From Saururus chinensis (Eukaryota > Streptophyta > Magnoliopsida > Piperales > Saururaceae), in contig CP141146.1 of assembly GCA_035235625.1 (NCBI GenBank), positions 20,764,501 through 20,828,500 on the forward strand: DNA of 64,000 nucleotides. Direction: 5' to 3'. The notes below the pieces were generated by a model. It had not been told where the DNA came from, did no database searches, and worked only from the letters and a program-made list of their open reading frames with translations. Each line of letters begins with the position of its first letter. The stretch's first letter is position 1. The position numbers were made by a program, and so were the translations under genes. Below, piece after piece: positions 16,126-63,108 of the stretch.

Positions 16126-17236
16126 TAAAATCAAAGTCGTTGAAAAGAATCATGTAACGAATTTAAGACAAAACTTTCGATCAAGTCAAATTCAAAATAA
16201 TAAAAATCAAGGTTTCTGATTAAATCCAAAGCCATACGAGAAAACAAAATTTCAACTCATTCTTGGTGAAAAATCGAAATTTGAATCCGTCTTAATTCCG
16301 ATGCAAAACATGCAGAATGAAATTCTAAATTAAATCTAAATCAACTCATTTAGAAAGAATTTTCATATAACTCACGATTAAAAATAAAATTGGACTTCAT
16401 ACAAGTCACATATACAAAATGAAAAGTTTAAAAGCAAAATTCATATTAAATCCAGTAAAATAAACATGATGCAACAAATTTAAACTTAAGGCTATAAATA
16501 ATTTTTAATTAAAAAAAATCAAAATAATCAAATTGATGCTTGCATCAAAACTCATGCAATACATGGCGATAAAAATCTCAAATAATTATTCGATTAAATC
16601 TCATATTAAATCAGGTGCAACGCATTCAAGCAAAATTTTCAAATTAATCCTAATTTAAAAAAAAATCAATATCTATAAACTATAAGCTTGTCATTAATTA
16701 GATACACATACATAGCATAAAAATAAAGATTACTTCTAATAAAACAAATTAGAATTATCATAATTAGAGTTCGAAGCAATTTTCATATCATATCAGCAGA
16801 ACAAAATTAAGTATTAAAATTTGATACGACTTGTTCATAACAACGTATTCAAAACATGTTCGATTTAAGATCAAAATTAATAAAATTTATGTTCGTAACA
16901 AATCCATTACAAAGCATGTACACAAAAATTAAAATATGCTTAGAAATTGAAGTTCTCAAAATAGTAGTCCATATTAAATTAAAAATTATTGATGTAAAAC
17001 AAAATTTCAAAATTAGAGTTCATTTTAAATTCGATAACACACGGGCATAACCAAAGGATGAAAAATCGAAATTTATTTGAAATCCGCGACAACACGTTCA
17101 GAAGAGAAAATTAAAAAAATCACGATTCATTTCAAAATAATCAGAACATATTCAAAACAACGATTTCTATTTTCAAAATTTAAATCAAAATACTTATTAA
17201 ATTAATAAAATATTATACTCTCGCAGACAGATCAAT
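16126..17236. other. AT-rich leader of the LARD; no gene
   Basis: Very A-rich non-coding sequence with AAAATCAAA-like words and no supported frame. It adjoins the primer site and occupies the position where gag would be in a coding relative. Confidence 0.6.
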
Positions 17237-17250
17237 GCTCTAATACCATT

Positions 17251-19244: not shown

Positions 19245-19479
19245 CATGGCCCACATAAAAACGGATAATTGTCGACATGCCTTGTCCATGTCTGCATCCG
19301 TGTTTGTCCCTTTACACCCCTAAAGCATAGTTGACGGAGGTGGGCAAAGTCTACTAGCCAGCCTTAGCAGCCTCTAACTACCCCACAGGAAGGCTTTTCC
19401 AACAACAACCCAGGTTAGAATTTAGTTTCCATTCCTCCTGTACATCACCTAACTTCGTCTCAGATGGAAGGAAGATGCT

Positions 19480-25100: not shown

Positions 25101-25665
25101 ATAGGAAATATGTCTAAGTCTGCCGAAAACTATAAAACTGGAAAACTATAATATCAGAAAACTATAAAACTGGATCATTGGATAATAAATAAAAAACATT
25201 CTCTTTATTTTATTTGAACAGTCTCGATTTACAATTTTTTATATTTCCTTTTCATCTAAGTATAGGAAGTATGTCTAAGTCTGCTGAAAACTATAAAACT
25301 TGAAAACGGGAAAACTAGAAAACTATAAAACTGGAACATTGGATAATAAATAAAAAACTATCTCTTTATTTTATTTGAACATTCTTGATTATACAATATT
25401 TTTATATTTCCTTTTCATCTAACAAATATAGGAAGTATGTCTAAGTCTGCTGAAAACTATAAAACTGGAAAACTGGAAAACGGGAAAACTGGAAAATGAG
25501 AAAACTAGAAAACTATAAAACTGGATCATTTATCATAAATAAAAAACATTCTCTTTATTTTATTTGAACATTCTCTTTATTAATATCTTGAGTATACAAT
25601 ATTTTTATATTCCCTTTTCATTGATTTTTAATCTAACATATTTGTATAGGAAATATGTCTAACTC
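25101..25665 (+). repeat. Serial duplication of acceptor plus start codon
   Basis: TATAGGAA(A/G)TATGTCTAA(G/C)TCTGC occurs four times, with the ATG at 25110, 25271, 25437 and 25655 (spacings 161, 166 and 218 bp). The repeats also share CTATAAAACTGGA, CATTCTCTTTATTTTATTTG and ACAATATTTTTATATT. Only the last copy opens into the long frame (MSNSAGK...). The first three read MSKSAENYK and soon stop. ACTGGAAAAC words are amplified within the units. Confidence 0.85.
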
Positions 25666-28600
25666 TGCAGGAAAAATAATGAAAAAGGGGAATCTGCCGA
25701 ATAAGCTTTATGAAGGGGACCCCCAATGCAAGTCAAGTTATTATTATATTGGTAAATTAAAAGACCACTTTGACAGGCACAAAGTGCAGAAGAAGTCGTT
25801 TGATAGGACATGTTTTGGTAAGATTATGGAATGTGAGGTTACACGAAACATGTTCCCTGCCCAAGCCTTCCACCATCTCCTTAAGAGGCATAAGGGGGAT
25901 TACCTATTTCAAGTGAATGAGAAGATGAGCATAAAGCTTTCCCCAAAGGAATTTTGTATGGTTAGTGGCCTGAAATTTGCTGACTCTACCCCTCCTCTCC
26001 CATCAGTGCCGAAATTCTTGAAGAAAGGCAGCCTCTTACTGCGAATATTTGGGAGGTCGAAGTTATTAATAAGGAAGGAGGAGTTGTTCCAAAAGATCAC
26101 AGTATGTGAAAATGACAAGGATGCCATAAAGTTGGATGTAGTTCTTGTATTAGAAAGTTTATTGGTGGGTAGAGGGTGGAACAATAAGGTGGATAGGAGA
26201 TACTTGCAGCTTGTAGATGACCTGGATGGTTTTGATGAGTATCCTTGGGGAAACCTTTGCTACTGGGACACATTGCGAGGTTTAGAGCAAGCTGCGAGGT
26301 CTATGGGCAATGTAAATTACAATGTCTATGATTTTGTGCATGTTGTAACGGTAAGTTTTACTTATTTAATTAATTTCTTAAAACATTTTAGTAATTAACT
26401 GATAGAGAGTTATGTTTTAGGTGTGGGCAATGGAGAGGATTCCGTTGTTGGGGGATTGCTGTGCAAGCAAAATGAGGAGTACTTTTCCTCTTATATGTAG
26501 CTGGGCATCTTACAAGAAGCCCAAATTCGATTATCTTGAGGAGGTGGTTTTACTCGGAAGGTATATACTAACTTTTCATTCGTTCATTTAGAATGACTTA
26601 TGCTATACACATACATAGTACATTTACCTTGCCATATGTATTGATATGTAGGTAAAGGTTTTGAAGGCTATAACTGTACATGAGGAGGACAAAGAGTCAA
26701 AGGCACTTATTCATAAAGCTGCAAGTTTGAAGTCCTTCTTGACAAATGAGAGAGTAACATTTACATCATTTGTCAGTCTTCAAAGAGCTTCTGATGGTGA
26801 GGATGTTGATATCAAGTCTACCTCTGATGATGACTCTACGCGGGAACGGAAATCCCAAGAGGTGGCTCAATCTTTAGATGAAGATGTAGATGAGAATTTT
26901 ATATTGAAATGCAGAGTGGCTAGGGAGACTTCTAATTGGAAGGAGGTTAGAAAGGGGAAACATAGGGTGGGGGATGAGGGTTTGCATGCCACATTGTAAG
27001 ATATATTGTCTTCCTTAAGAAGGATTGAAAATAAAGTAGATAAATTGGAGTCAGAGGTTATGACCAAGGCATCTAAGGAAAAGGAAAAAAGACTATGAGG
27101 TTTATGTTTCAATTACAAATTTGCCAATTTTAATATTTGAATTAAAATGAGCTAGAATGATGTGTTTGTAGGTTCCTGTTGTTGAAGAAAAAGTTTCTAG
27201 TCAAATGGATTGCGATTTGCCGCATGTTGATGAAGTAAGTACAGTGTAAAACTGTAATACTGTAAAACTGTAAAATAGTTCTAATTTTTCTTTGCTATTT
27301 TTATGTAGAATGTGGTTAAAGAGATGGATGGAGAGGCGGAAAAGGTGGTGGATGTGGAGGATGAGGCAGAGGCTGAGGAGGAGGGGGAGGATGATGAAGA
27401 GGAGGCGGAGGCAGAGGAGGAGGATGAAGAGGAGGATGAGGATGAGGATGAGGATGAGAAGGATGAGGAGGATGAGGATGAGGAGGAGGATAAGGAGGAG
27501 GATGAAGTTAAGGAGGAAGAGAAGAAGGAGGAGGAAGCCAAACATGAGGGTATGGAGGTGGATAAGGACGAAGAAGATCAGGAGGATAAGGAGGAGATGG
27601 AGGAGAAGGGTCAGGATGCAAAGGAGGAGGAGAAGGGGGAGGAGGCAAATGAGGATGAGGAGGAGGGTGAGAAGGAGAAGGGGGAGGAGGCTAGGAAGGA
27701 GGAGAATAGGGAGGATGCAAAGGAGGATGAGGAGGAATCTGATAAGGAAAAGGAGGAGGGGAAGGGAGAGGATGTAAAGGAGGAGGAGGAGGAGGGTGTC
27801 GTGGGGACTATTGTTGCCGTTGAGGTACAGATAATTATTGTTAATTAAAAGTAGTTGTATATAACAAGAAGTAATATGTTTTCTTATCTTCTTATGTAGG
27901 ACGAAGAAGATGACAATAAGCCTTTAAGTCAGTGTAAATTGGAAACGGCACCAGCGGGAAGGGTGAGGGCTAAGAGTAAATATCGAAAACCCCCCTACAC
28001 AGACCCACAAAAAAAGGGCAAAAAAAGAAAGGCCACTGAGAAGGATATGGATATGTGGCCTGAACCCCTAAAGGTTGATACCTCTACCATGAAGAAGTGA
28101 AGAGCAATAAATTGCTAATGCTAAGCGAGGCTGCCCGATTGGATTTTACTAACCCAGTTTCATTTGGGGCAACAGAGGAGGACAAGTTAAATAAGTTTTT
28201 AGAGAAGGGTGTTAAGAAGTGAGTTCATTTGTTATTATTCCAAATGGGAATGTTTTATTTTTAATACTATTTACTTAGCATTGTATTTGATTTGAGTGTT
28301 GGTATTTGTAATAATTAGATATGCAGAAATTGGGGGCATTCTTATAACCCCAGCATTATTAAAGGGTTTTACAAACCCTGGGAGATGGCTAGGAGATGAA
28401 GTATGTGTATTGATTTATGTCGTTTTAATAAACGTTTGTAAAGGCTAAGGTATGAATATGTATTAATCTATTGTGTTCTTGTTTCTATATAGCACATTGA
28501 TGCTTATGTGACATTCATGCGCAACAATGGGCCTCGATGGGTGAGGGACCAAGCATTCCACTCAGTTCATTTCCTGGTAAGCCATCATTTTTTTTAATTC

Positions 28601-30455: not shown

Positions 30456-32862
30456 GGATGTACATTGGGATGCAAGTTGTAGGAAATATAATTACGACAA
30501 TGCAGAATCAAAACTAATTGAAGTCCCATGCATGGTGACTTATGTTGCTCTTTTGGATATGTTGTACGAAGTGTGTTAATGGTCAAAGAAAGATTACTTA
30601 TTAAAGTTATGTTTCATATATCCTATTGCAGTGCCTATTGACCTTCCACCTTCTCAAATAAATGACAATGGAACTCTATATTGCTTCCTTCGAGAGAATA
30701 AACTGAGGTCGAATGGAATACCATTGATGATAACTAAAGAACGCAAAGAGAATATTACTGAAGGGAATATTAGTGTCAATGTGCCGAAATGGCATGAGGA
30801 GATGATAAGCAAAAGTGCAAAGTGGGAGGTGAAAATAAGAAGAAGTGGAGCCATGTGGGAGGAGAAGGGCACATTTTCTAGTGTACCATACAACACAACT
30901 GTCAATCTCAGTTGTGATGAAGATAAACTTCAAGTTGATGAGCTATTTCATTTGGAGGAGGAGAGTAGGATGAAGAAAACTCAAACGTCCTGAATTGATA
31001 TCGATTGAAGCATTAATGAATATGTCCCAAACACGAATATAGATGACTTTCAATTTGGGCAGGATCCTTATTATGTTTCACCATTAGCATATGAAGATGA
31101 TCCTATAGGCGAGAAGAATAATGGTGCAGAAGACCATGATATGAGCGCTCTAACACCCGAAGATCAGCCTTGTAATGATCAAAGGTACAGTCAATATTGT
31201 GAATCGAGATTTGTAAGTTTATATTATGTATATGTATGAGACTATTAATACAAAATATATTGTGTAGATCAAATGGAAGCAACTGTAGTCAGCAACCGCC
31301 TGTTGACGAAGATGTGGAAAACATAGACAGTCCAAAAATATCAGTTCCAGTTCCTGTTAAAAGAAGGTAAGTTTGTTTTTTGTTTTGGAAGTTTATAAGT
31401 TTCGCAGTTTTACAGTGTGGCAGGTTTTCAGCTTGGCAGTTTTTCAATTTGGAAGTTTTTCTTTTGGCAGTGTTTCAATATGTGGCGGTTATTCTTTTTG
31501 GCATGGTTAACTTTTGGTAGTTTCTAGTTGAATAATTTACATTTTTAATTTTCAAGAAGAATAAGAGATTGATACTTGTTGAAGAACCCCTAAGTTTGGT
31601 GTACAAAATGGACATTAGTGGGGAGGATCCCTATGTAAATAATGACTTTGGTGATCAATTAGGGAAGGCCTTCTATGATTGCGAATCGATAGAAATTGGT
31701 CAACAGTTAAAGGACAAAGCCATGCTTCAACTTCACCTTCACAACATGACCATGTACACCAAGTTTCAGTTTAAGGTTATATATTCAAATAAATCAAGGT
31801 ATACAATCAGATGTGTAGTTGAGAACTGCCCATGGAGACTACATGCCTCGAGAATTAGTGGATGTTTCATGTTCAAAGTGAAGGAAATGAATTCAGTACA
31901 GACATGTTCGAAGGCATTACTTAGTGAAGATCATTGTCAAGCAAAAAGATCCAGGCCTCTCCCCCCACTTCTACATTGCAGTAAAGACAAATCGGCCACA
32001 GGTATTTGCTGAACAAATGACCATCATACAATAGATTAATCCAAATGCGCACAAGTGGCCAGTGGATGTAGATGTAGCTAAATAGGCAAATGTACACTTT
32101 CCCGGGAAGAGGTATAATGTTGTGACATCTAATGGGTGCGAGAGTTTTAACTCCATGATTAAAGAGTATTGGGAATATCCAATTTTAGCCATATTAGAGG
32201 GTATACGCTTAAAGATGCAAGATATGTGGTATCAACGTATCATATGTGCAGGGAAGTGGACTAGTGAATTAACCTTGTCGGCAGAAAATGAGATTGAGGT
32301 AATGGCTAAGGAAGCATGTGCACTTGCATGCTATCCAATCAATGCATATGAGTTTTATACAAAGTCGTATCCTTATGATGATAAAGTTGATTTTGAAGGT
32401 AGGACATACACCTGTGGGAAATTTCAGGTTATGGGTCTACCATGTGAACATGCATTGGCTGCATGCTCAAAAAGACACATTGATTATCATGCATATTGTT
32501 CACCATTTTACAGGGCAGATACATATAAGGAGGTTTACAAATGTGGCATATACCCTGTTCTACATAAAGGTCAATGGGAAATACCGGATTCTATCAGTGC
32601 AATTCAATTGAAGCCTCCGCATTCAAGGATTCCCGCCGAACGACCAAAGAAGAAGCAAATACTCTCGCACAGAGAAGAAAAAAGAACAGTGAAGTGTAGT
32701 AAATGTAAGGGGTTTGGCCATAACAGGGCTACTTGTTAGTTCCCAGTTAGGCATCATAAGCGCAAAGACAATGAACACAGTACTAGAATAGATATAGGCG
32801 AACCTCAGGCAGTTAGAAATCATACAGGAAAGAGACAAGTCCTAAGAAAGAAGAAAAAATAA
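30456..32862 (+). pseudogene. MURA-like transposase gene lacking the DDE core
   Basis: The N-terminal part (about 30.46-30.99 kb) fits the PB1-like region of plant MULE transposases. A MuDR-type DNA-binding block follows at 31.6-31.9 kb (GKAFYDCESI ... RYTIRCVVENCPWRLHAS). The end has a SWIM zinc finger (TYTCGKFQVMGLPCEHALAAC region, 32.41-32.47 kb) and a CCHC knuckle (CSKCKGFGHNRATC, 32.69-32.74 kb). The roughly 250-residue catalytic region between them is absent: within about 100 bp (31.98-32.10 kb) the sequence passes from the end of the DNA-binding part to SNGCESFNSM, which lies after the core in relatives. There are several stops and frame changes besides. It cannot code a working transposase. 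Confidence 0.8.
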
Positions 32863-40505: not shown

Positions 40506-41139
40506 ACTAAAAAGAAGGGTTACAATTGTGTAGTGTTTTATATATTTGAATGGATTGGCCTAGTTAGGGAGGATGTCGGGTCTAGTTTTACCAAACCCAA
40601 TCTCGATACCATTTAAGAAATGGTAACATGAACCTAACCCAACGCAAATAGGCCAAACCTGAACTAGCCCCCAATGACTAGTTTAGAATTAAAAAATATT
40701 TTTATTTTTTAATTTACTTACCTATTAAAAAATTATTGAGTTATTATCAAAATACAAATAAAAAAATTATTTTTATAAGTTTAATTGGGTTAGGTTGGCT
40801 CATATAAACCCCAAACCTGATTCGAATAACTATTTAGGTTGAATGTGAAAAACCAAACCCAACCCATTAAAGTTGGTCGGGTTTTACCATATAGCCGAAT
40901 ATGAACCCATTTGGACAACACACAACTTACTTTTTTTATTTTTCTCATTATTTTACAAAAACCATTTAGATGTTATGTAATACGGAATTTTAAATAGTTA
41001 TTTGGTCGGCCTTAACGCTTACACATATGACTCATTTGGGTCAGTATGGTCGAGTCAAGTTTGCCTATATACTTGTTTTGTTCAAGTGTTTTTCATCTTT
41101 GTATCGATCTCCTAAACTTGTTGCTGGTGACTTTTTGAA
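40506..41139 (+). repeat. Left half of a 0.78-kb repeat interrupted by a MULE
   Basis: From ACTAAAAAGAAGGGTTAC it matches 60630-61260 almost base for base (perhaps 94 percent by eye), including GGATGTCGGGTCTAG and CCCATTTGGACAACACAC. The match stops at 41139, where the MULE begins, and resumes at 47872. Function unknown, non-coding. Confidence 0.9.
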
Positions 41140-41283
41140 GGGAAAATTATTTAAATAATAATTAAAAAAATTACCACTTTGGACCACTTTGGGAAATATT
41201 TCCCAAAGTGGCTTTTTTTTTTCAATTTTTAGTTGATTTCGTCGTTTTTTTTTTCAATTTTTTTTCCCAAAGTGGTTTAAGTT

Positions 41284-41472
41284 GATTTTGTCCTTCTAAA
41301 TGACGAAATCGGTTTACCGTTTTAACGGACTTGACCTGATTTCATCATTTAGAAGGATGAAATCAACTTAAAGCGCTTTCGTCCTTCTAAAGGACGAAAT
41401 CACTGCACTTATACATTTTCGGTCGTTCGCTTCAGAACCCAAGCCGATTTTGTCCTTTTAAAGGATGAAATC
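41284..41472. repeat. Left subterminal palindromes of the MULE (four copies)
   Basis: Four 26-27 bp near-palindromes built on GATTTCGTCCTT / AAGGACGAAATC: about 41284-41310, 41338-41364, 41376-41401 and 41446-41472. Spacing is irregular and spacers are unrelated. Possible transposase-binding sites. Confidence 0.8.
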
Positions 41473-41489
41473 ATCTTTTTTTAACAGCG

Positions 41490-42358
41490 ACTCCGCCTCC
41501 CATCATTCTCCGCGCTTTCTCCTTCCAGTCGTCCACCCCCCCGTGATTTCGTCATCCGGCCATTCCTTCTCCTTCCAGTCATCCGCCCCACCGTGATTTC
41601 CTCCGCTAGAGCTCTGACTTGAGTGCCGCCCTGCTGCCGAGTCCGCCAAGCCAGTCCTCTGCCCTAGGTTTCTCCACCGTGTCCGCTGATTTGGGTATTT
41701 CTCTTTGCCCTAATTTTAATTGAGGGAATTGATATGCTTAGATTGGTTAAAAGGAGTATTTTGTTTTATATTGTGAGTCTTTAAAAACGGTTTTGTGTAC
41801 TTGGAGATTCAATTGTTAGGGAATTTTATAGTTATGGGGGCAGTGGAATGATGTATGGCAATGCATGTTGATATAGTTATTGTATGATGATTGTGTCATA
41901 AGCATGTTGGGTATATTATACATTAATAATGTTATGGATTGTGTTATGTTATAGCATATGTGGTAAAGACGCAATGTGGGCGGTACTTACCTTTGTGCAT
42001 TGTTAGAACATATGTTGTATGAAATAATTATAAAGTTTTGTGGCCGAGTTGGATCATAGTAAGTTAGTAATTGATATGTAATTGAGATGGATTCATATAA
42101 TATGATATGATATGAAATTGGGATGGATTCATATAATCTAATATTATTTTAATTTATTGTTTATGAATTAAGTGAATAGAGATGATAGAAGAAATGGTTA
42201 GTTTTTTACTTAACTATGACGGACACACATAAGGATTATTAATTAAGAAACCGTCTACATATGATGAATTTGAGATGCACGTAGCAAGCAAGGTTGGGTG
42301 GGATTGAAGAAGATGAAAAATTACTATAAAATGTAATATTCCATCATATAGATCAAGA
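41490..42358 (+). promoter_or_regulatory. C-rich leader and upstream region of the MULE transposase gene
   Basis: 41.49-41.70 kb is C-rich, with a two-fold repeat of CTCCTTCCAGTC(G/A)TCC ... CCGTGATTTC, then GTGTCCGCTGATTTGGGTATTT. It resembles an untranslated first exon. 41.70-42.36 kb is AT-rich with TATGATATGATATG words and reads like an intron. Confidence 0.4.
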
Positions 42359-42439
42359 ATGACACTAATATGCATAAATGATGATGCATCAATGGGTTTT
42401 ATATTTCACCACTCGCATTACATAATTTCTTTCAAGTTA

Positions 42440-45014
42440 TTTCTCGAAAAAGAGGCCCGAGTGCCTAGTGAAAGGCGAAGTAGTTCACATAGGAGCTCTC
42501 ACAGGAGCTCGGATAGAAATGTGAACAATGAAATGCATATGCAAATGCCAGTGAACGACGAAGAAGAAGGAAATTTATCTATGACAGTAGCTTCAAATGA
42601 ACGTCATAGGTCATCTCCCCCTATTTATGATGGAAGTGGACCTAATTGGAGGTAAAGTTTATTAAGTTGTGAATACGTTTTGAATCTTATAATTATTAAT
42701 GAAATATGTTTAGCTAAATTTTGAATTTTGTGTGTAATATGGAAAGTCCACAACGCATGCACATGAGCCATTTAGCTTTCAAATGTCTCAAGGCGGTGCT
42801 TGGTATGGAACTCAAAGTTCGATGGTCATTCATTACGCCTACACGTATGTTGGTCATACCGATGCTGGACCATCCAATTAAATGTGAAATATATATTCAT
42901 TAATAAATATAACATTTTTAGGCATATGAAATTTAATACATATGCGATGTTCATATGTAGGGGGGCATATGTCGACGATGAAGATATTGATGAAAATGAG
43001 GCTATGAAGGTGAAGACAATATTGGGGAAGAAAGTGGAGAAGATTATGACATCAACGAAGAAGGGGTCAGAGGTGAAGAAAGCGTTGAACAGATGGTTGA
43101 AGGCGAGGGGGATGATGCGGTATACAATGTTATTGCCACAAATGATATGAACGTGGATGATGAAGAGGTGTCATACTATGAAGTGGAGCCACTCTATGCA
43201 CACATCACAGATGAGGAGATAGATGCGGCCGTTAATTCTGCCATGGATATGGACCAACAAAACAAAGATGAGTTATATGTTGGCTGCATCTTTGAGAATA
43301 AAGAAGCATTTGTTACAGCCTTACAGGACTTTTCCATTCAAAATCATGTCGAATACAAGGTTGTACGAACAAATTTGTCATAGTATACAGTGAAGTGCAT
43401 TGATAGTACTTGCCCTTGGAGAGTTCATGGCTCAATAAAAAGGGGTGGAGGGTACTTTAAATTTAAGACGTACAAAGGTGACCACACATGTCGGAATGCC
43501 TAGCTTAGCACAGATCATACGCAGTGCACTGCCTCCTTTATTTTGAAGGTCATAATGCCCGCTATCCAAGCCGAATTAACTCTCACGCCAGGGGATATTA
43601 TTCAAAGAATGAAGGAGAAGTATCATGTTGACATATCTTATAAGAAAGCATGGGCAGCAAGGAATATGGCGATCAAGGTTATTTATGGGGATTGGGTGGA
43701 ATCATATAAATTGTTGCCAATGTACCTAAGTGCGGTGAAAGAAGCAAATCCTGACACCTACTACCGCTTAGAGGATGATGATGTACATTGTGCAAATGGT
43801 GGCACTTGTAGGAGATTTAAGTGGTTGTTTTGGGCATTTGGGCAGTCTATAGCGGGGTTTCGACATTGCATCCCTATGATTGGTATTGATGTCACTCACT
43901 TGTATGGTAAATATTCTGGTGCTCTTATGACTACAACGGCTACAGATGAAAACAATGGGTTATTTCCTCTAGCATTTGGGCTTCTTGGGAAGGAAGATGG
44001 AAACAACTAGAAATGGTTCTTAATGGAATTGAGGGATCATGTACTGATGGGCATGACAGACATCGTCATTATTTCAGATCAACATAAGGGGCTTCAAAAG
44101 GGCGTTCCTGAGGTTCTTCCCGAGCCTCTGTACCACCATCATTATTGCATCCGTCACATAAAGCAAATTTTAAGTAGAAGTTTAAAAATGATACACTAAT
44201 GGACTTTATTGGGACAACAGCTTGTGCACTTATAGTAGAAAAGTTTGATGCTAAAATGGACTTGATTGGTCAGGAGAGTCCTAGGGTAAAACATCTCCTC
44301 TTAGGAGGAGAATTGCATCGTGCACTATGGTCCCTTGCCCATGGTGGTTTTAGGACATTTGGCATGACGACTACAAATATGGCTGAAAGTTTAAATAGCG
44401 TATTGAAGGGGGCACGAGGATTACCTATGTAGGCTTTAGTGTCAGCTATTTTTTATTGGGTCATAAAATTCTTCGTTAAACAATCGTCTGCTACATCTGC
44501 CATGGCCACCCCGTATACTCCCAGAGTGGAAGCGATAATGAGAGAACAAACAAGAAAAATTGGGGAGTATATAGTTAATAGGATTAACAGCGGTCAATAT
44601 GAAGTGACGTCTATTCGTGGCCAGAAGGTTATGGTAAATGCGAGAATGCATACTTGTACATGCAACATCCCTCAGGTTTATGGTTATCCTTACACTCACC
44701 TTATTGCAAAGTGGGCAAAGCGGCGGGAGCCGATACAAGCATCACTGTTTTACACATCGTCCACTTATAAAAATGTGTACTCAACAGAATTTTATTCTCC
44801 TCGTGGTCGAGAGTATTGGGAGAGAGATATACCTTTTGTGTTATACCCTCCGATAGCAACAAGGCAACTTGGTCGCCCACGGTCTGTTCGCATTAGGAAT
44901 ACAATGGACCGTAGAACGATGGAGAGAGATGGTAGAGGAGGAAATAAATGCCGAAGGTGTAAACAAAGTGGGCACAATAGTAGAGCATGTAGAAACCCTC
45001 CTGTTGATTGGTAA
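42440..45014 (+). pseudogene. MuDR-type MULE transposase, broken
   Basis: In order: an N-terminal Ser/acidic part (42.44-43.26 kb); a DNA-binding block (CIFENKEAFVTALQDF ... DSTCPWRVHGS, 43.28-43.48 kb); the DDE core with the first Asp in MIGIDVTHLYGKYSG (43888-43890), then NNGLFPLAFGLL, and a second Asp in VIISDQHKGLQ (44077-44079); a C..H region (HYCIRHIKQ); MTTTNMAESLNSVLKGAR near 44.37 kb; a SWIM finger (CTCNIPQVYGYPYTH) in which the Cys before the last His is Tyr; and a CCHC knuckle (CRRCKQSGHNSRAC, 44.95-44.99 kb). Damage: in-frame TAG near 43381, 43501 and 44008, frame changes near 43.0 and 44.19 kb, and TAG near 44430. Two upstream exons (about 42.44-42.65 and 42.74-42.89 kb) are inferred from splice sites. 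Confidence 0.85.
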
Positions 45015-45103
45015 ACATATAATCAATCTCTTTATTTATTCTCTATTTTAGGTATGAGCATATGTTCCTAACGATTGATGATATTCTCTTAATTCTCTGT
45101 AGA

Positions 45104-47383
45104 TCATATGGATCATCCAGAGCCTTCTTACGGGCCAGGCCCGATTGATGATTCTATACTCTTAGAGCAGGAGTCACATAGGTCGACTGCTATTTGGAGA
45201 GGAGAGGTATGATAACTCTTTTTAAAATTTGTTTCATTTTTTTAGATGATATAGTATGTTGGGTTATAATTTTTAAATTTATTATAGGACCCCGAGTGCC
45301 TTGAGTGCACCAAACATTTTACGTATCTCTGCCATTGGCCAATGGATGATCATATGTTGCCCTATATCGAGTGAGCGGGATTTGGGCATTTCATTCATCT
45401 TAGATATGTACATCTCGATCAGCCTCTATTGACAACTCTTGTTGAGAGATGGAGGAGGGAGACACAGACATTTCATTTGCCCTATGGAGAGATGTCCATC
45501 ACTTTCATGGATGTGGCAATTATGTTAGGATTTCGCATCAATGGACATGTGGTGACAGGCACGATAGGAGGAGCTCATTTGGATATATTAGTTATACTCC
45601 TTGGTAGAGCTCCTCCTACTACAGTGATGCGTGGTAGTCGAGTGAACCTTTGATGACTCTTACAGGAGTTTCGAGAGCTCCCAACCGATGCTACGGAGAT
45701 AGTTATCGAGCTGCATGCATGAGCCTATCGTTTACATTTACTTGGAGCGACAATATTTGCGAATACCACGAGTAGCCATGTACATGTGGCCTATCTCTCC
45801 CTCCTTGCGGATTTCGACATGGCAGGTGCGTATTCATGGGGCAATGCTACTCTTGCATTTTTATACCGAGAGTTAGGGAAAGCATGCTAGGCCATGACCT
45901 CGGGGATTGCAGGCTGTCTGACCCTTCTTTAGGTAAATGAATTCATAACTTAAATATTTTTTTCACGTGTAATTCTTTAATTTTATTTAATATGTTATCA
46001 TATTTTTTGACATAGCATGGTCGTGAGAGCATTTACACGTTGGATGACCAAGTGCTGAGATGGGTCGCTTAGCTGAGGGTACTCCATTAGGACCGAGGTA
46101 AGCTATATTTTTGTTTAACACTTAATTGTTTTAGCAATGTTTTATATACATATGCTGAACTCATTTTTTAAATTTAACTCCTTAAGGAGGAATGTTCGGA
46201 AAAAGAGAATAGAAAATCCACAAGGAGTCATCCGATTGTATAGAGGGGAGTTAGACCACCAGCGGCCATATCAGGTAATTTTATTGCTGTGGAACTTTTT
46301 TATAATGATTATAAAAAAATTTGTCATTATTTAAGCTAAATTATCTTTATATATTGTATAGGTTATTTGGCAGTCGTACTCACCGAAAGTATTGGATGTG
46401 TTACCTCCTCTATGCACTAACGGTCGAGAGGTGTGGCTATCTCGAACTCCATTAATATGTTACGAGATAGTAGAGATGTATGTGCCGGATAGGGTAATGC
46501 TCCAGTTTAACCTAGAGCAAGGGGTCCCACCATCTACCGTCGAGTTTGTCCATTGCATCACTCGACAGGGTCGCCATATTACAGATTGGACTTTACATCA
46601 AGCGTCATATATCGCTTGATGGGAGGATAGGAGAGCCACTGTTATCAGAGGGGAGATGGCTACGACATCGCGAGATGTGCATAGTGCATATATGCAGTGG
46701 TATTTATCGATTACACAATGATATATTTTACCGTGCGATGATATAGAGGAGATGACATATCAGCCTAGGGGAGCGAATGAGGTAGCTTTGGTAAGTATAA
46801 CTTTGTTAATTAAGGCACATATTATTTTTTTATTTCTTATTAATTATTTATCTAATTTTTAATTTATTTTTTATAGCTTCGTGTAGTTCGACATACACGT
46901 GCGCATTTGACTGACGTAATTAACATCTACACTTCGAGCGAGGACTTATTAGCAACATGTCAGTCGGTGATTAGGGAGCATGATGATGTCATTCGTAGCT
47001 TGTCATTGCTTCATTCGGTGATTACGGATGTCCAAAGAGATTATCCTATCTACGAGGCTGCTCAGACACAGCTGATGCACTCTTCATTCCCTGATATTCC
47101 ATCGTCATCAGCAATGCATAGCTCTCCTCCTCGTTCATCATTTCCGGTCACTACACATGTAGCTCAGGCAGAGCCGATTTTATATTATAAACGACATCGG
47201 CCACCTTGTGTTGAACCATCTATTACTTATGCTGAGCCGGAGCCAAAGTTGGAGCCACATCTTGAGCCAGAGCTAGAGCTAGAGCCATATCCCGAGCCGG
47301 AGCCACAACCAGAGCTGGAACAAGCAGATCATGAGGAGGAGCTCGTACAACACTGTCGAGGTCAAGGACATAGGAGATTGTGA
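45104..47383 (+). pseudogene. Plant mobile domain (PMD) gene of the MULE
   Basis: After an intron-like gap behind the transposase: a first exon at 45.10-45.21 kb, then the PMD core at about 45.29-45.93 kb (AGFGHFIHLRYVHLDQPLL; LVERWRRETQTFHLPYGEMS; ITFMDVAIMLGFRINGHVVTG), further PMD pieces at about 46.02-46.09 and 46.18-46.28 kb, and 46.36-46.79 kb (PDRVMLQFNLEQGVPP; ITDWTLHQASYIA). The last exon (46.88-47.38 kb) ends with a Pro-Glu repeat (EPEPKLEPHLEPELE). PMD proteins (PF10536) occur as host proteins of the MAIN family and inside MULEs and other transposons; their element role is unclear. Several in-frame stops (such as TGA near 45653 and in 45.7-45.9 kb) break it. It may have been read as one gene with the transposase. 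Confidence 0.75.
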
Positions 47384-47610
47384 CATTAGCTTTGTTGTAT
47401 GTTTAATTTAAACTAAACATTTTTTCGATTTGTGATGTAATATATTTAATAAATATTTCTATTTTATGTTTGTTTTTATTCGATGATGTCAATAACTTTA
47501 ATGTTATCTTTGGTATGTATGGAATGTGTGGAATGAACAGGGATATGTGTTAAAGTTAGTTTAAAATAAATTTCTAATTTTTTTTAATTTGATGAAGAAA
47601 TCAGTATTAC

Positions 47611-47720
47611 ATAATTTCGTCCTTTAAAAGGACGAAATTGGCTTTGTCGGCTTTGTTTTCTTAGCCAATGGCCGAAATACTCTAAGTATGACGATTTCGT
47701 CTTTTAGAAAGACGAAATCG
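47611..47720. repeat. Right subterminal palindromes of the MULE (two copies)
   Basis: Two more of the same design: about 47611-47638 (AATTTCGTCCTTT / AAAGGACGAAATT) and 47693-47719 (GATTTCGTCTTT / AAGACGAAATC). They lie inside the right inverted end. Confidence 0.8.
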
Positions 47721-47871
47721 ACTTAAACCTGATTTCGCAGCTAAAAAATTTATAAAAAAGCTACGCAAGCGCCAGTTGCTTAGCTAGTGCCTGTGTGGCA
47801 AAAATGAACACCACTTTGGGAAATATTTCCCAAAGTGGTAATTTTTTTAATTATTATTTAAATAATTTTCC

Positions 47872-48027
47872 TTTTTTTTAATAAAAAATTTTCAATTCTT
47901 TCCACCACTTTAAAAAATAGACAGGCCTCAAGGATCAACGTGGTTCAACCAATCCAAGAAGAATTTTTGGGTCGGTCCATCTATTTTCTTGGGACGCTTG
48001 ACCTAGCCGGTTTAAACTCCAAAGTGT
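47872..48027 (+). repeat. Right half of the interrupted 0.78-kb repeat
   Basis: TTTTTTTTAATAAAAAATTTTCAA onward matches 61262-61413 (TTTAAAAAATAGA(C/T)AGGCCT; CAACCAATCCAAGAAG; CTTGACCTAGCCGGT). Similarity stops at ACTCCAAAGTGT. Confidence 0.9.
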
Positions 48028-54540: not shown

Positions 54541-56005
54541 CGGTGACAACATGCCACTGGTTGACGTGGGGACCACACAATAGGAGCCACGTCTCCCAAT
54601 TGTCCTAGAAAAGCACTACTACCTTCCAGACGAAAACAATCCCTAATTGCCCTAGACGAAACCTCTGTTTGTGCGAGCCTATCAACTCCCTAAATACGCC
54701 TTGCTGCAGGAGTAAACACCGTGATTTCACCTCCGGGAAGTGGAAGAAACTTCCATTATGCTCCTCTGTTGCTGGAAAATTGGTGTTTTGGTAAACTATT
54801 CACTTTTACTTAATTTTTCCATGAATCTTTCAAGAATTTTTTGATTGGGATCAGTTTCACCAAAATATTCCATAAATATCTTTGCTGATTGTTTTCCTCA
54901 TAAAGAAGTTTCTTTAACACCTGGGTGAAGCCGAATTAAGCGTGCCGTGACCTGATCCCAATCCACGTCTGAATCCTGATCTCTTAACACATCATCTCTT
55001 TCATTCGCCAGTTTCTATTTTGGTTTGTATTTTGCTTTTCGTTTTTTTTTCCTGTTTTCAGTCAGTTCTTTGCAAATATACTTCATGCTAGAAGATTGGG
55101 TACTCCTCTCGTATCTGCAAAACCTAGCTCTTTTCTGCCCTGAACTTGGAAGACCGTTGCCCTTTTGCTGTCGTTGCGTTGTATTGTTTTATCTGATTGT
55201 TTAGAGTTGGTGGGGAAGATTTTGGTGCCGGAGATAGCTTTGCTCAAAGGCTAATGAGGAGTTATGCGGGCGCTAAAAGCTCCCTGTTGGATTGGGCTGG
55301 AACTTTTACTTTAAGACACTTTTCTTCTTGTCTACAATCTTGTACTGATCATTTTGGCTTCTATCTCTGAGGCATCACATCAGTACTATTGCTTTTCCCC
55401 CTAGGCTCCAAATTTTTTGCTGGCTTAAGTTGCTCAATCAACTTAGCTTCAACACGATTGCATATATTTGGACTGTAATTTTTTTCCCTAAAGAAAGTTT
55501 ATTCTTTGATTGGATGTTTCCAGTTCATACATTCACATGTTCCATAAAATTGTGTGATGCTAATTAGTCTATATTCCTGCTTTGGAGCTTTGTCACTCAT
55601 ATTGTCTAAGCTTCCTAAAATTGTGTGATGTGCTGGAAGTTTCATGCAATTTCCAATATAATGTTAATTTTCATGTCATAAGTAACTTTGTGCATTTGCG
55701 CCATTTTCACATTAATTTTCTCCTTTTTGTCCACAAATGTTATCATATGTTTGTGCATCCTTGTCCTTTGATAGATCGTTGATCTCAAAGGCAAATGCTA
55801 ATGTTTTGTTTCTTTGCAGTTTTATCACATAGATGGGGTTAGAATGGGTGGGATTGAAAATTAGTAAAGGTACAATTATTAAGATTCATATCTCTAACTA
55901 CAACTTTACTATTTGACAATTTTAGTTGTCTATATTATCAATTTCATTCTCTTGATTTTTGCTGTTTTATTGTGTGTTTATTGTTTAAAAATACACCTCA
56001 CCCAT
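54541..56005 (+). repeat. Direct repeat left of the PPR gene (probable promoter/5' UTR copy)
   Basis: GACAACATGCCACT ... GACGTGGGGACCACACAATAGGAG, CAACTCCCTAAATACGCCTTGC and GATTTCACCTCCGGGAAGTGG, through TTGTTTAAAAATACACCTCAC, all recur at 58962-60048. The second copy lacks about 430 bp (55.23-55.66 kb). The sequence has promoter-like and 5' UTR/intron-like character and ends about 135 bp before the PPR start codon. Confidence 0.85.
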
Positions 56006-56139
56006 GTTTGATTTGGATCGCATGATCAGTCCTCTTCTCTCGTCGAGAAATTTTTTAGTGTGCGTCGCACACCATGATCGTGTGTTGATTAAAGGGAGTG
56101 ACTTTGCCGTAAGCATCGTCAAAAGATGCCTCCGGTGAC

Positions 56140-57804
56140 ATGTCTCTTCATCTGAGTAAAGCTGCAAGACCAAACCTCTATGTTGCCACGGCCCATTCGC
56201 TCTTGTCCCTACTCAGCGCCTGCTCCACCCTCGGCGTGGATCACCTTCGCCTCTTACACGCCCGAATCCTAAAGACGCATTTCCACAAACACGTCTTTCT
56301 CCTCACTCGCCTCGCCCATGCTTACCTCTGCCACCACCGCCTTATCCCTGCCAAGCACATCCTTACAAAGGCCCTCGCCTTCCCGCCGCTGTTCCTATGG
56401 AATGAGACAATCAAATCCTTTTCCAGACATGGGTTTTTCGGGGAGGCCATTGGGCTCTATGACGCCATGTTGGAGAGGGGAGAGACGGGGCCCAACGAGT
56501 TTACTTTCACATTCATCCTCCCAGCTTGCGCTGGCGCGAGGTCGCTTACTCATGGGAGGCGGGTTCATGGCGAGATCCAGAAGAGGGGTTGCGACGAAAA
56601 TCTGTTCGTTGCCACCGCGCTGGTGGATATGTATGGGAAGTGCGGGGAACTTCGCCTTGCGAGGAAGATGTTTGATGAAATGCCCTATAGAAAGACGGCT
56701 GGTTTTAATGCTATGATAGCAGGGTAGGTTGTTTGGTAAGAGCAATCTTCTTTTCTATTAAAGCAATTCCATCATCGGCTTTATGTTGAAGGTGAAATTT
56801 TTTTCTTTATTCTTGCTTTTTTATCTAACAGGTATGTGATGAATGGGGAATGTGATGAAGCTATGTCCATCTTTAACATGATGCAGAGAGATGGAGTCAA
56901 ACCTGACCAGATGACCATGGTGAGCGTACTACAAGCTTGTTCTTCTGTTGGAGCTTTGCAACAGGGGAGGTGGGTCCATGAGCAGATGTTGAGGATTGGC
57001 ATGGAAATTAATGTCTACTTGGGAGCAGCTCTCATTCACATGTACGCCAGGTGTGGAAACATAGATGATTCTTGTAAAATTTTTAATCAGATGCAAAAGA
57101 AAGATTTAATTTGTTGGACTTCTATTATCTCTGCCTGTGGGATGCACGGTCTCGGGGAGACTGGGGAGATGCTCTTTATGCGCATGATAGAGTCCGGAGT
57201 TAGACCTGACTGTGTAACTTTTGTGGGTTTGTTGGCCGGTTTTAGTCATGCAGGAATGGTTGATAAAGGGTTAATGTATTTTAAGAAAATGAAGGAAGAA
57301 TTCTCTTTCAAACCTGGCTTGGAACATTATGGCTGCATAGTAGACATGCTTGGTAGAGCTGGGAAACTTGAAGAGGCTGAAAATCTTGTAAGGACAATGG
57401 GGTTCCCGCCTGATGCTGGCATTTGGGGTGGACTGCTTAATGCATCTGTGATTCATAACAACGTTGCAATGTGTAAGAGGGTCTGTAAAGAGATCCTGAA
57501 ACTAGATCCTACAAATTCAGGGTGGTATGTGCTGATGTCAAATGTTTATGCAACGGCTGGAATGTGGGACGAGATGGCAAGGATCAGATCGATGATGAAG
57601 AACAGTAAGGTAATAAAGCCTCCGGGCTGGAGTTCAATAGAGATCGGTGGGTTAGTTCATAGCTTCCTTTCATCTGATGAGTCTCATCCAAAATTTAAAG
57701 AGATATATGAAGCTTTGAAGAAGTTAGAGGATACCATGAGATTTGAGGGATATGTTGCTAAGACGAGATGTGACTTGGCCTATTTGGAGGAAGAAATAAG
57801 GTAG
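56140..57804 (+). CDS. Pentatricopeptide repeat protein, PLS class, E/E+ type
   Basis: Two exons, 56140-56723 and 56832-57804, with a GG/GTAGGT donor and ACAG/G acceptor splitting a Gly codon (AG-GG-TAT gives ...MIAGYVMNG), 518 aa in all. About ten degenerate 31-36 residue helix pairs are visible (VATALVDMYGKCGELRLARKMFDEMP; YLGAALIHMYARCGNIDDSCKIFNQM; HYGCIVDMLGRAGKLEEAENL). They are followed by an E domain (WGGLLNASVIHNNV ... YVLMSNVYATAGMWDEMARIR) and an E+-like tail (PPGWSSIEI ... FEGYVAKT) ending EEEIR, with no DYW domain. Such proteins bind organellar RNA and often specify C-to-U editing sites with a DYW partner. The basic N-terminus suits mitochondrial or plastid import. Exon 1 is GC-richer than exon 2. 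No breaks seen. The ATG at 56140 is the first in frame after the repeat. Confidence 0.93.
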
Positions 57805-58961: not shown

Positions 58962-60048
58962 ACAACATGCCACTCTGGTCATGGACGAAAACATTTTCCT
59001 AAATATCTACCTTTGACGTGGGGACCACACAATAGGAGTGCCGGTGTCTGCGGCGCTGGTCTCCCAATCGTCCTAGAAAAGCACTTACTAGTTTCCCGAG
59101 ACGAAACCCTCTGTTTGTGTGAACCTATCAACTCCCTAAATACGCCTTGCTCCCGGAGCAAAACACTCTGATTTCACCTCCGGGAAGTGGAAGAAACTTC
59201 CATTGTGCTCCTCTGTTGCGCAGGAAGTTTGGTGTTTCCGTAAACTACTAACTTTTACTTAATTTTTCCATGAATCGTTCAAGAATTTTTAGTTTGGGAT
59301 CAGTTTCACCAAAATATTCCTTAAATATCTTTTCTGATTATTTCCTCATAAAGAAATTTCTTTAACACCTGGGTGAAGCCGAATTAAGCATGCCCTAACC
59401 TGATCCCAACCTGCGGCTGAATCCTGATCTCTTAACACCTCTTCATCTCTTTCATTCGCCAATTTCTATTTCAGTTTGCATTTTTTGTTTTCATTTTTTT
59501 TTCCTGTTTTCAGTCAGTTCTTCTTTGGAAATATGCTTCATGCTAGAAGATTGGGTACTCCTCTCGTATCTGCAAAGCGTAGCGCTTTTCTGTGCTGAAC
59601 TTGGAAGACCGTTGCCTTTTTGCTGTCATTGCGTTGTATTGTTTTCTCTGATTGTTTAGAGTTGGTGGGGAAGATTTTGAATATAAAGGTAATTTTCATT
59701 TATCATAAGTAACTTTGTGCATTTGCGCCATTTTCACATTAATTTTCTCCTTTTTGTTCACAAATGTTATCATACATTCGTGCATCCTTGTTCTTTGATA
59801 GATCATTGATCTCAAAGGCAAATGCTAATGTTTTGTTTCTTTTTTGGTTTTGTTTATCTCGTACTGCAGTTTTATCACATAGATGGAGTTAGAATGGGTG
59901 GGATTGGAAATTAGTAAAGGTACGATTATTAAGATTCATATCTCTAACTACAACTTTACTATTTGACAATTTTTGTTGTCTATATTATCAATTACATTCT
60001 CTTGATTTTTGCTGTTTTATTGTGTGTTTATTGTTTAAAAATACACCT
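58962..60048 (+). repeat. Direct repeat right of the PPR gene, cut by a CACTA end
   Basis: Matches 54541-56005 with an internal gap of about 430 bp. The last shared bases are ACACCTCAC at 60048. In the left copy the sequence then runs on toward the PPR start codon; here CACTATGAGAAAAGG begins instead. Confidence 0.85.
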
Positions 60049-60240
60049 CACTATGAGAAAAGGCTTTTCAGAGACCCTTTTTTAGTGGTTCTTCAACAAA
60101 GCGCCACTAAGGATATTATTATCAGCGCCATTTGAATAAAGCGCCGGTAAAAATATATCATTAGTTAAAGCACTGCTAAAACATACCTTTTAGTGGTGTT
60201 TTTTTTTTCTGACCGCCACTAATTCAATAAATTGCAAAAC
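60047..60240. mobile_element. CACTA transposon end fragment
   Basis: CACTATGAGAAAAGGC at 60047 is a CACTA terminus, followed by subterminal short repeats (AGCGCCACTAA, AGCGCCGGTAAA, TTTTAGTGGTG, GACCGCCACTAA). No opposite end or gene within the next 400 bp, so it is truncated. Confidence 0.6.
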
Positions 60241-60629: not shown

Positions 60630-61413
60630 ACTAAAAAGAAGGGTTACAATTGTGTGGTGTTTTATATATTTGAATGGATTGGCCTAGTTAGGTAGGATGT
60701 CGGGTCTAGTTTTACCAAACCCAATCTCGATACCATTTAAGAAATGGTAACCCGAACCTAACCTGACACAAATAGGCCAAACCTGAAGCAGCCCCCAATG
60801 ACTAGTTTGGAATTAAAAATTATTTTTTATTTTTTTAATTACTTACCTATTAAAAAATCATTGAGTTATTATCAAAATACAAATAAAAAAAATTATATTT
60901 TTAAGTTTAATTGGGTTAGGTTGGCTTATATAAACCCCAAACTCGATTCGAATAACTATTTAGGTTGAATTTGGAAAACCAAACCCAACCCATTAAAGTT
61001 GGACGGGTTTTACCATATAGTCGAACATGAACCCATTTGGACAACACACAACTTACTTTTTTTATTTTTCTCATTATTGTACAAAAACAATTTAGATGTT
61101 ATGTAATACGGAATTTTAAATAGTCATTTGGTCGGTCTTAACGCTTACACATATGACCCATTTGGGTAAGGACGGGTTGAGTCAGGTTTGCCTATATACT
61201 TGTTTTGTTCAAGTGTTTTTCATCTTTGTCTCAATCTCCTAAACTTGTTTCTAGTGATTTTTTTAATAAGAAAATTTCAATTCTTTCAGTCACTTTAAAA
61301 AATAGATAGGCCTGAACCATCAACGAGGTTCAACCAATCCAAGAAGAATTTTTGGGTTGGGCCATCTAGTTTTCTTGGGATGCTTGACCTAGCCGGTCTA
61401 AACTCCATAGTGT
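60630..61413 (+). repeat. Unoccupied copy of the 0.78-kb repeat
   Basis: Continuous counterpart of 40506-41139 plus 47872-48027. Across the point where the MULE sits in the other copy it reads GTGATTTTTTTAATAAGAAA without an insert. It directly precedes the leader of the RPC6 gene. Confidence 0.9.
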
Positions 61414-61429: not shown

Positions 61430-63108
61430 TAGCTCCGACCTCCGCTGCCCGTGAATCAGCTCTGCCTCCCGCACCTGGGTCCTCCTCCAGTTCATTTCAG
61501 ACTGTCTGAGTCCACCTGTGCAGCTCTTCCCGACTGCTCCTCTGATTCCCTTCTCAAGTCTCAAATTCTCTGTAAGCCCCTACCCAACCCAGATTCATTA
61601 TAATTACCAAAATAGAATTCTTATTTTTTTTCTTTTCTATTTGCTTACTAGTTTTGAAATGTTGTGTTTTTTTATGCTGACCTTATTGTTGTTTTTTAGT
61701 TCTTTAGTATTTGCTGATCAGAATTCAGAAGATAGTCAATTTACTCAAATTGTTGAAGGTTTTATTTAGGAACTTTGCTGATTTTTTTTTCATTGAGAAA
61801 TGATGTATTGTAGACTACAATTTTTGTCAGGTTGTTAACATTTTTTATGGGCCTAATGTGGGATTATGTGATTTTTTAGAAATATGGGGCTGTTCAATTT
61901 GATCAATAAGCTATGTTAATGAACTATGTGAATCTGTTAGATGATGTAATTATTTAGCATGTTGTGTATGTTACCCAATGAGTGATCAAATATTTTGATG
62001 AATTGGGTGTCTAGTTTAGGTGTTTTCATGGCTTAATTTTATCAAATCAAGATTTTTTTTTGTAGCATTTTAGTTGTGTGTCAACTGTCAACCATTTTTA
62101 ATTGTTTTTCTTATCTTGAATCTTTTTGAAATTTGTGTGCATGTTAATGTATTTGGTTGTTTTCCATAAAAATTGCAAATGATACATATATTTATCACTG
62201 ATTTCTAAATGTGCCGTTTCTTACCCAAACCGAACCGAAATGACCCCGGCCGAAAAGCCGAATCTCGAATTCGTCACCATGTATAGGACCCACAAAAAAA
62301 GTTGAAAAAACTTGCATTTGTGGGTTTAATTTGATAGATCTTATCTAGAGCTTTCTAATGGTACCACTTCTGCAGCTCATCTAGTGTTTTTGCAATTGTA
62401 GTTATCATGGGCAGGACACCAGCAAATGTACCTTCTAAACGAAGTCATCCAATTGGAAGTTCTTCAAAAGTGTTATCTGAGAATGAGCAGAAGCTATATA
62501 ATTTAATCCAAAGCAAGGAAAGCATGGGTATCTCCGTGGCTGAGCTACGTAATACTTTGGGTCTTTCTGTCAGCGTTGCAAATAAATCCCTGGAAATGCT
62601 TGAACTTAAGAGGCTCATAAAGCCAGTAACACATCATATGGCTAGAAACAGAAAGTACTATATGGCAGTTGAGTTCCGACCTTCAAAGGAAATTACTGGA
62701 GGATCCTGGTGCACAGATGGAAAATTTGACGAGGAGTTTATACTAGTAATGAAAGATCAGTGTGTGCGTCATATTGAGAAGCTTAGGGTTGCTACTATTG
62801 ATGCGCTATCAGATTCAATATGCCGATCAGGATTGCTTAACATTGAATGTGACACATGGCAGATTGCAGATATTGTTCAGGCATTGCTGCTAGATGGATT
62901 GGTTGAAGAGCTGAAAAGTACAGGGATGGGGGAGTTTTCATAGATTCCTTTGGGGAAAACTTGCTATCGGGTTTTAAAAGTGACTGCAATAGAAGGGGCC
63001 TTGGCATCTATTCCTTGTGGGGTTTGTCCCAGGATATATGAATGTACACATGATGGTATTATCTCTCCCACTAATTGTGTTTATTTCCAGAAGTGGCTTG
63101 ATTTTTAG
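61430..63108 (+). CDS. RPC6: RNA polymerase III subunit RPC6 (RPC34/RPC39) gene, one in-frame TAG
   Basis: A C-rich 5' UTR exon ends at 61571 (TTCTCT/GTAAGC). The intron runs to 62375 (TTCTGCAG) and the coding exon starts at ATG 62407. The frame runs 233 codons to TAG 63106-63108, with one TAG inside at 62941-62943 (codon 179, between GEFS and IPLGKTCYRV). Winged-helix parts: LSENEQKLYNLI ... ISVAELRNTLGLS ... ANKSLEMLELKRLIKPV, then GGSWCTDGKFDEEFI. The end PCGVCP ... SPTNCVYFQKWLDF carries Cys 204, 207, 213 and 224, the Fe-S set known in this subunit. RPC6 with its partners in the Pol III initiation subcomplex helps recruit TFIIIB and open the promoter. The 5' UTR intron argues against a processed copy. 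The internal stop means a pseudogene, a sequence error or a truncated 178-aa product. Confidence 0.85.
61572..62375 (+). other. 5' UTR intron of the RPC6 gene
   Basis: T-rich, GTAAGC donor and TTCTGCAG acceptor. An 83-codon frame at 61.52-61.77 kb starts in the leader and has no family resemblance. Confidence 0.5.

Follow-up and report, generated by a model that had tools for sequence, protein, structure and literature searches.

Results

The 64,000-bp stretch of Saururus chinensis DNA analysed here (the window) contains two closely related copies of a low-copy repeat, one of which is interrupted by a Mutator-like element (MULE) that carries the remains of a transposase gene and of a plant mobile domain (PMD) gene (Table 1).

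Table 1. Features of the interrupted repeat, the inserted element and the uninterrupted repeat copy (positions in the window)
Feature	Position	Strand	Remarks
Left flank, interrupted low-copy repeat	40506..41130	+	93% identical to the 60.6-kb copy
Left 9-bp target site duplication (TSD), CTTTTTGAA	41131..41139	+	7/9 identical to right copy
MULE	41140..47872	+	6733 bp; defined by terminal inverted repeats (TIRs), TSD, and transposase and PMD homology
Left outer TIR, 43 bp	41140..41182	+	42/43 identical to right end
Left 28-bp perfect palindrome, CCACTTTGGGAAATATTTCCCAAAGTGG	41184..41211	.	541 exact genome copies
Degraded main transposase exon	42884..45011	+	Start approximate; aligned to a relative's open 710-codon exon
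Degraded PMD exon 1	45288..46006	+	PF10536, 8.6e-21 for piece 45375-45653
Degraded PMD exon 2	46363..46859	+	86% identical to relative; 2 stops in 150 codons compared
Third downstream exon, acidic Pro/Glu-rich tail	46877..47304	+	Open here; 79% identical to relative
Right 28-bp perfect palindrome	47811..47838	.	
Right outer TIR, 43 bp	47830..47872	-	Overlaps right palindrome
Right 9-bp TSD, TTTTTTTAA	47873..47881	+	
Right flank, remainder of interrupted repeat	47882..48027	+	Matches the 60.6-kb copy
Uninterrupted (empty) repeat copy	60630..61413	+	784 columns aligned to joined flanks
Empty target site, TTTTTTTAA	61258..61266	+	One copy, inside the uninterrupted repeat copy

BLAST matched 40506-41148 to 60630-61276 with 92.9% identity (E 0.0) and 47873-48027 to 61258-61413 with 89.7% identity (E 1e-53). 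With the insert removed, the joined flanks (780 nt) aligned to the uninterrupted copy in one piece and from end to end, 780 of the 784 columns being aligned, with 53-55 substitutions, four single-base gaps and a K2P distance of 0.071-0.074, and not as scattered similarity. These data agree with the earlier note on this DNA, which described a 6.7-kb MULE dividing a repeat that is continuous at 60.6 kb, except that the right half of the repeat resumes at 47873 rather than at 47872. The breakpoint in the repeat lies, as that note also proposed, exactly at the inverted ends of the element, which is directly adjoined on both sides by copies of an A/T-rich 9-bp target. The two copies mismatch at two of nine bases, and the target is present once in the uninterrupted repeat, allowing the anticipated comparison of the site before and after insertion. 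The family terminus, GGGAAA..., was defined from the surroundings of seven other end matches (L002-L008), and the length of the duplication was set by three full-length relatives (6.8-6.9 kb, same architecture), all three of which display perfect 9-bp duplications immediately outside this terminus. The interval is thus a MULE inserted by transposition with duplication of its target. As the element is present in one repeat copy while its flanks are continuous in the other, the insertion came after the two copies had split, the order that had been proposed earlier. The initial ~390-400 bp of the repeat is part of a dispersed family, the listed matches outside the window being 67-84% identical. 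The possibility that the 784-bp repeat is itself a transposon was rejected, as inspection by eye revealed no matching target duplications and the inverted matches within it are short and at chance level.

The element displays the features of the MULE superfamily, namely TIRs, a TSD whose 9 bp fall within the 8-11 bp range and a MULE/MuDR transposase domain, while the PF10536 match places it among the PMD-carrying MULEs. The TIRs rule out a non-TIR MULE, and the degraded main transposase exon rules out a Pack-MULE, a non-coding carrier of host fragments. According to Dupeyron et al. (2019, PMC6446971), the MuDR, MUDRAVI and VANDAL MULEs of plants have 9-bp TSDs, TIRs that are tens to hundreds of bp long and, in many groups, a PMD. 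The window element shares TIRs, a 9-bp TSD, a MULE transposase and a PMD with these carriers, but differs from the elements so described in that its PMD lies downstream on the same strand and each end contains a strongly conserved 28-bp palindrome. The MULE transposase-PMD-C fusions described from grasses and Amborella by Ikeda et al. (2017, PMC5418596) are similar in that the PMD travels with a MULE transposase.

The view that the ends of the element are identical holds, with one mismatch, for the outer 43 bp but not further in, as only 183 of 208 aligned positions match over the first 250 bp. The corresponding values for three relatives whose transposase exon is open are 219/232, 235/242 and 223/230. 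Chance is ruled out by the E values of the two flanks and by a search for the 43-bp end allowing up to three mismatches, which gave 12 occurrences across 516 Mb, including both ends of this element, and none for the reversed control; the reversed palindrome likewise had 0 exact copies genome-wide. A 10-bp unit present in 18 of 22 aligned ends is missing from the right end, so that its outer TIR overlaps the palindrome. TIR identity was discarded as a clock, since the ends are unequal in the relatives whose transposase exon is open as well, and the outer end was discarded as a lineage marker, since one copy (L069) has the window-type end yet its transposase groups with other copies.

Both genes are broken, as stated in the earlier note. 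The transposase exon contains four premature stops in the aligned frame and two one-base frameshifting deletions, and the window piece matches PF10551 with an E value of 1.6e-4 (22.5 bits, under the curated cut-off of 27.6). The 710-aa exon of a relative, L071, matches PF10551 (6.2e-19) and PF03108 (1.5e-10), both over the cut-off. A candidate zinc-binding motif at the transposase C terminus matched zf-CCHC_2 in the window under the cut-off (E 0.0053); a search of the L071 exon at E 0.01 returned no zinc family, and a CCHC-like pattern is visible there by eye. The first two PMD exons display seven premature stops in the ~360 codons compared, of which five are within the first 212 codons compared in exon 1 and five (of the seven) are changes from CGA to TGA. 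The last ~70 bases of the exon 1 interval are probably intron, as the PMD domain match ends at 45935. Comparison of these two exons with those of three relatives gave omega values of 0.20-0.38 at a dS of 0.32-0.46. The relative's version of the third downstream exon had no match to a Pfam family at E 0.01.

The family of the window element is very abundant in the genome, with the PMD gene downstream of the transposase, as is known for plant MULEs. Coding-competent relatives, the existence of which the earlier note had raised, were sought among 150 scored matches, and in eight the transposase exon is open, the frame running for 700 aa or more without interruption. When 150 scored transposase matches were compared with 150 scored PMD matches, 48 were followed on the same strand, 1766-1880 bp downstream, by a PMD match, and no PMD match lay within 4 kb in the upstream direction or on the opposite strand. 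Facing ends 2.0 kb and 2.7 kb apart (C1:57300761/57302751 and C8:6267100/6269782) suggest, from their spacing, short copies that are too small for both genes.

Changes in the transposase exon were polarised by one outgroup, L075, which is 73% identical and itself degraded. The window branch has 26 synonymous and 47 nonsynonymous changes, two of the latter being stops (omega 0.49), compared with 44 and 37, respectively, on the stem of the relatives (omega 0.23). Constraint on the transposase is estimated to have been kept over about two thirds of the window branch. Unconstrained decay of the exon amounts to 0.025 per site, with wide confidence limits (95% bootstrap 0.007-0.042); two stop-making changes common to the window copy and L075 were counted on the stem and are probably parallel, which lowers this estimate slightly. 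Assuming equal rates in flank and element, this decay fits within the divergence of 0.036 per copy accumulated by the flanks since the repeat split, pointing to breakage of the transposase after landing, in part through changes at CpG sites. The four stops in the exon represent a slight excess over the 1.6-3.1 expected. C>T or G>A changes account for 37 of the 73 on the window branch and affect 13 of 132 CG sites, 8 of 143 CHG sites and 16 of 662 CHH sites, and CpG observed/expected is 0.78 in the window element vs 0.96-1.00 in three relatives.

Discussion

In plant transposons a paralogous copy that lacks the insert demonstrates mobility and reveals the target. The present case departs from the usual related empty sites in that a single window contains both sites, separated by 20 kb, and in that the inserted element is full-length and of coding type. 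The insertion itself is a clean but textbook case and the element is of a known kind; the locus offers a before-and-after view of a single MULE insertion, in which flank divergence and the loss of coding constraint serve as two rough clocks that agree in order.

Very probably, the 40.5-48.0 kb repeat copy received, by transposition after the repeat had split, a MuDR-type MULE in which the transposase gene was followed on the same strand by a gene for a PMD protein. At that time the transposase probably either retained its coding capacity or had lost it only recently. The landed copy would then have been silenced, and both genes would have decayed in place through ordinary mutation and deamination of methylated CpG, as the substitution pattern and the loss of CpG suggest. 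The slight excess of transposase stops and the two mismatches between the target copies weigh against this account. The PMD gene may have been broken before the last move of the element, since its stops are more numerous than flank age predicts at average rates. This excess of stops also accords with the proposal, made in the earlier note, that transposase made elsewhere moved a copy whose genes no longer coded; intact relatives would have provided this enzyme in trans. The relatives whose transposase exon is open, the putative short copies and the nearly intact outer ends are all in harmony with such movement. We nevertheless regard it as unlikely, because the constraint estimated for most of the window branch, an unconstrained part no longer than the post-split divergence, and a number of stops and a CpG pattern that agree with later decay all argue against it, and the ends on which the proposal drew are nearly identical over 43 bp only.

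Two further explanations concern the empty site rather than the genes. Some cut-and-paste elements can leave precisely and restore one target copy, and the 60.6-kb site could therefore be a former element site. However, it contains neither a footprint nor a residual target duplication, and a third copy of the repeat on the same contig, 74% identical, also lacks a MULE at this point. Insertion is thereby far more likely than a loss from the 60.6-kb copy, which we consider very improbable. That the two flank halves are unrelated repeats adjoining the element by chance is scarcely credible; the membership of the first part of the repeat in a dispersed family is all that speaks for it, while the joined flanks align as one unit at 93%, and the second half of the repeat, used as a query, identified only these two copies, the 74% copy and one 64-bp match (5/5 candidates).

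Ikeda et al. (2017, PMC5418596) speculated on an anti-silencing use of MULE-borne PMDs. It is conceivable, although we hold it to be rather doubtful, that the PMD is not passive cargo but a MULE-coded factor directed against host PMD-dependent (MAIN/MAIL-type) silencing; its first two exons, with the omega values given above, appear to be under purifying selection similar to that on the transposase, the gene would be needed for movement, and its loss would lead to methylation and decay, as in the window copy. If true, the MULE-borne PMD would be an anti-silencing gene. A large MULE family in which the PMD gene is apparently kept by selection renders this suggested role testable.

Separately, an rbcL-like insertion in nuclear DNA, which indicates a flowering plant and nothing narrower, matched many plant Rubisco chains, the two best in one search being 4hhh and 1wdd, from pea and rice.

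Insertion of the MULE and its empty site

The 6,733-bp MULE interrupts a repeat that is also present unbroken (the empty copy) in the same window, C7:20764501-20828500 of a genome comprising 516 Mb in 11 contigs. Sequence matches within the window showed 92.9% identity for the left flank (40506-41148 against 60630-61276) and 89.7% for the right (47873-48027 against 61258-61413). Around seven other end matches (L002-L008) the family terminus reads GGGAAAATT, with L002 as the single exception (GAGAAAATT). This shared terminus places those of the window element at 41140 and 47872, where the terminal base, read inward, is G on the left and A on the right. The 22 distinct ends aligned subsequently do not form an independent set, as their selection relied on a GGGAAA-type pattern (two mismatches allowed). 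The two target duplications agree at 7 of 9 bases, and the empty copy contains TTTTTTTAA once, at 61258-61266. With the insert omitted, the joined flanks (780 nt) aligned with the empty copy (784 nt) with 53-55 substitutions and four single-base gaps (K2P 0.071-0.074). The pairwise alignment and the single target confirm the view, put forward in the earlier note, that the MULE inserted at a site whose empty counterpart survives; the mechanism is ordinary.

When the empty copy's second half was searched against the genome, with very common words skipped, five matches came back from five candidates: the empty copy itself, both halves of the interrupted copy, a 74% copy at C7:5916428-5916645 and a 64-bp match of 78% identity. 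The 74% copy runs across the target, unbroken except for small gaps, which makes an insertion into the interrupted copy much more likely than an excision from the empty copy. Polarised by the 74% copy over its span, the interrupted copy has the derived state at 11 differences and the empty copy at 4, with 7 unclear; these small counts lean towards quicker change next to the element.

Terminal inverted repeats

Genome-wide, the 43-bp end (up to three mismatches) occurs at 10 places beyond the window element, 12 including its own two ends, compared with none for the reversed control; further copies of the ends, which the earlier note had proposed seeking, thus exist. The 28-bp palindrome is found exactly at 541 genome places, against none for its reversed control. 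Its retention at both window-copy ends, and at many ends with differing outer bases, marks it as a candidate binding site for the transposase. A 10-bp unit found in 18 of the 22 aligned ends is missing from the window copy's right end, as it is from L073, L074 and one end in the outgroup, L075. On the left, the module that comes next, an inverted repeat of the form GCCACGC...GCGTGGC, is absent. Aligned across their first 250 bp, the two window-copy ends share 183/208 positions, a lower agreement than in three whole relatives (219/232, 235/242 and 223/230). The short right-end type also occurs at L073:7296-7323 and L074:7316-7343, loci 159 kb apart on C11. Their first 25 bases outside the end are near-identical, which suggests a duplicated segment with a MULE end.

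Positions of features in the window
Feature	Position	Detail
9-bp target duplications flanking both element ends		CTTTTTGAA and TTTTTTTAA
28-bp perfect palindrome adjoining outer end, inside both ends	41184-41211; 47811-47838	CCACTTTGGGAAATATTTCCCAAAGTGG
LTR-retrotransposon-like structure	11706-19249	LTR-like repeats start TGTAACGACC, end GGTCGTTACA; CATGG at both outer sides
Its direct repeats	11711-13618; 17251-19244	matched pieces 96-97% identical
Tandem array	15456-16133	period ~128 bp (window self-comparison)
ORF with DUF1985	25637-26398	4.6e-12
Second, different MuDR-type transposase, apparently broken	31536-32739	two open pieces; DBD_Tnp_Mut 2.7e-13, SWIM 1.2e-5
Direct repeats bracketing PPR-coding ORFs (56113-57804)	54643-56001; 59088-60051	89%; left repeat ~425 bases longer
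ORF matching RNA polymerase Rpc34 subunit	62359-62943	PF05158 4.4e-29; ~0.9 kb past empty copy

Coding capacity of the family

Three whole relatives, L070, L071 and L072 (6,802, 6,942 and 6,906 bp), share ~87% identity with the window copy over ~5.1 kb, and each is flanked by a perfect 9-bp target duplication. In all three the main transposase exon stays open across 710-712 codons; that of L071 matches PF10551, PF03108 and PF00872, all over curated cut-offs. Downstream on the same strand lie the exons of the plant mobile domain (PMD) gene (PF10536, 4.9e-35 in L071 and 1.1e-20 in L070) and an acidic tail exon. Each relative carries one stop within the compared codons of PMD exons 1-2, so full autonomy is not established for any of the three. 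Coding-competent relatives were also sought with a 168-aa transposase piece (best 150 of 2,680 candidates scored, 150 matches listed). Of these 150 scored matches, 8 keep a frame of 700 aa or more without interruption; two more have such a frame yet a stop inside the match. When a PMD piece was used (best 150 of 1,352 candidates scored), at least 48 of the 150 transposase matches had a PMD match 1,766-1,880 bp downstream on the same strand, and within 4 kb no PMD match lay upstream or on the opposite strand.

Coding state at the time of insertion

Compared with the three relatives, the window copy's transposase exon has diverged at dS 0.26-0.29 and dN 0.075-0.081 (omega 0.26-0.30), with two one-base deletions and four premature stops (five against L070). 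A FastTree phylogeny was built from the window copy, L075 and 30 relatives (32 sequences; three duplicate loci dropped), the relatives being the top-scoring matches of the 168-aa search plus L069 rather than a random sample. It places the window copy, on a branch of 0.052, as sister to all 30 relatives (local support 0.93). Polarised by L075, the window branch carries 26 synonymous and 47 nonsynonymous changes, including two stops; for the relatives' stem the counts are 44 and 37. Two of these 37 are stop-making bases that the window copy has in common with L075 and that probably arose in parallel. With the constrained omega set to the stem's 0.23, an estimated 0.025 per site of the window branch evolved free of constraint (bootstrap 95% 0.007-0.042), or 0.020-0.034 as the assumed omega goes from 0.30 down to 0.05. 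Flank divergence since the repeat split is 0.036 per copy. Free decay therefore fits within the post-split time, as expected for an element landing in coding condition, and the earlier note's suggestion that a broken copy was moved by transposase made elsewhere is unsupported.

Landing in coding condition is nevertheless not free of difficulty: the target duplications are imperfect, and L075 is both distant and degraded. At 0.02-0.0375 per site, 1.6-3.1 transposase stops are expected and four observed, while PMD exons 1-2 of the window copy hold seven stops in ~360 codons, above the average-rate prediction. This excess would also fit a PMD that was possibly lost earlier, before the last move. 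Five of the seven are CGA to TGA, so the stops may reflect deamination at CpG sites. C>T or G>A accounts for 37 of the 73 window-branch changes, affecting 13/132 CG, 8/143 CHG and 16/662 CHH cytosines (site totals cover the whole exon; changes, polarisable codons alone). The CpG observed/expected ratio of the window copy is 0.78, versus 0.96-1.00 in the three relatives. Such CpG loss and C>T change would be expected if the copy had been methylated and silenced.

Apparent constraint on the PMD

Between the window copy and the relatives, omega is 0.20-0.38 for PMD exons 1 and 2 (dS 0.32-0.46) and 0.61-0.67 for the tail exon; among the three young relatives it ranges from 0.2 to above 1, on counts too small to judge. 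An apparently constrained PMD in a large MULE family is a more interesting lead than the insertion. Ikeda et al. 2017 (PMC5418596) describe MULEs of several grasses and Amborella that have captured PMD-C, and speculate that it is used against silencing. According to Dupeyron et al. 2019 (PMC6446971), PMDs are present in many groups of plant MULEs. Nicolau et al. 2020 (PMC7156037) state that what eudicots contain is mainly genic PMD-C, and the idea that transposons may produce their own PMD proteins is repeated in PMC8616336. The main text of a 2026 gene-capture review (PMC13317346) contains neither 'PMD' nor 'mobile domain'.

Other features of the window are tabulated; DUF1985, present in one ORF, is a domain frequent in plant transposons.
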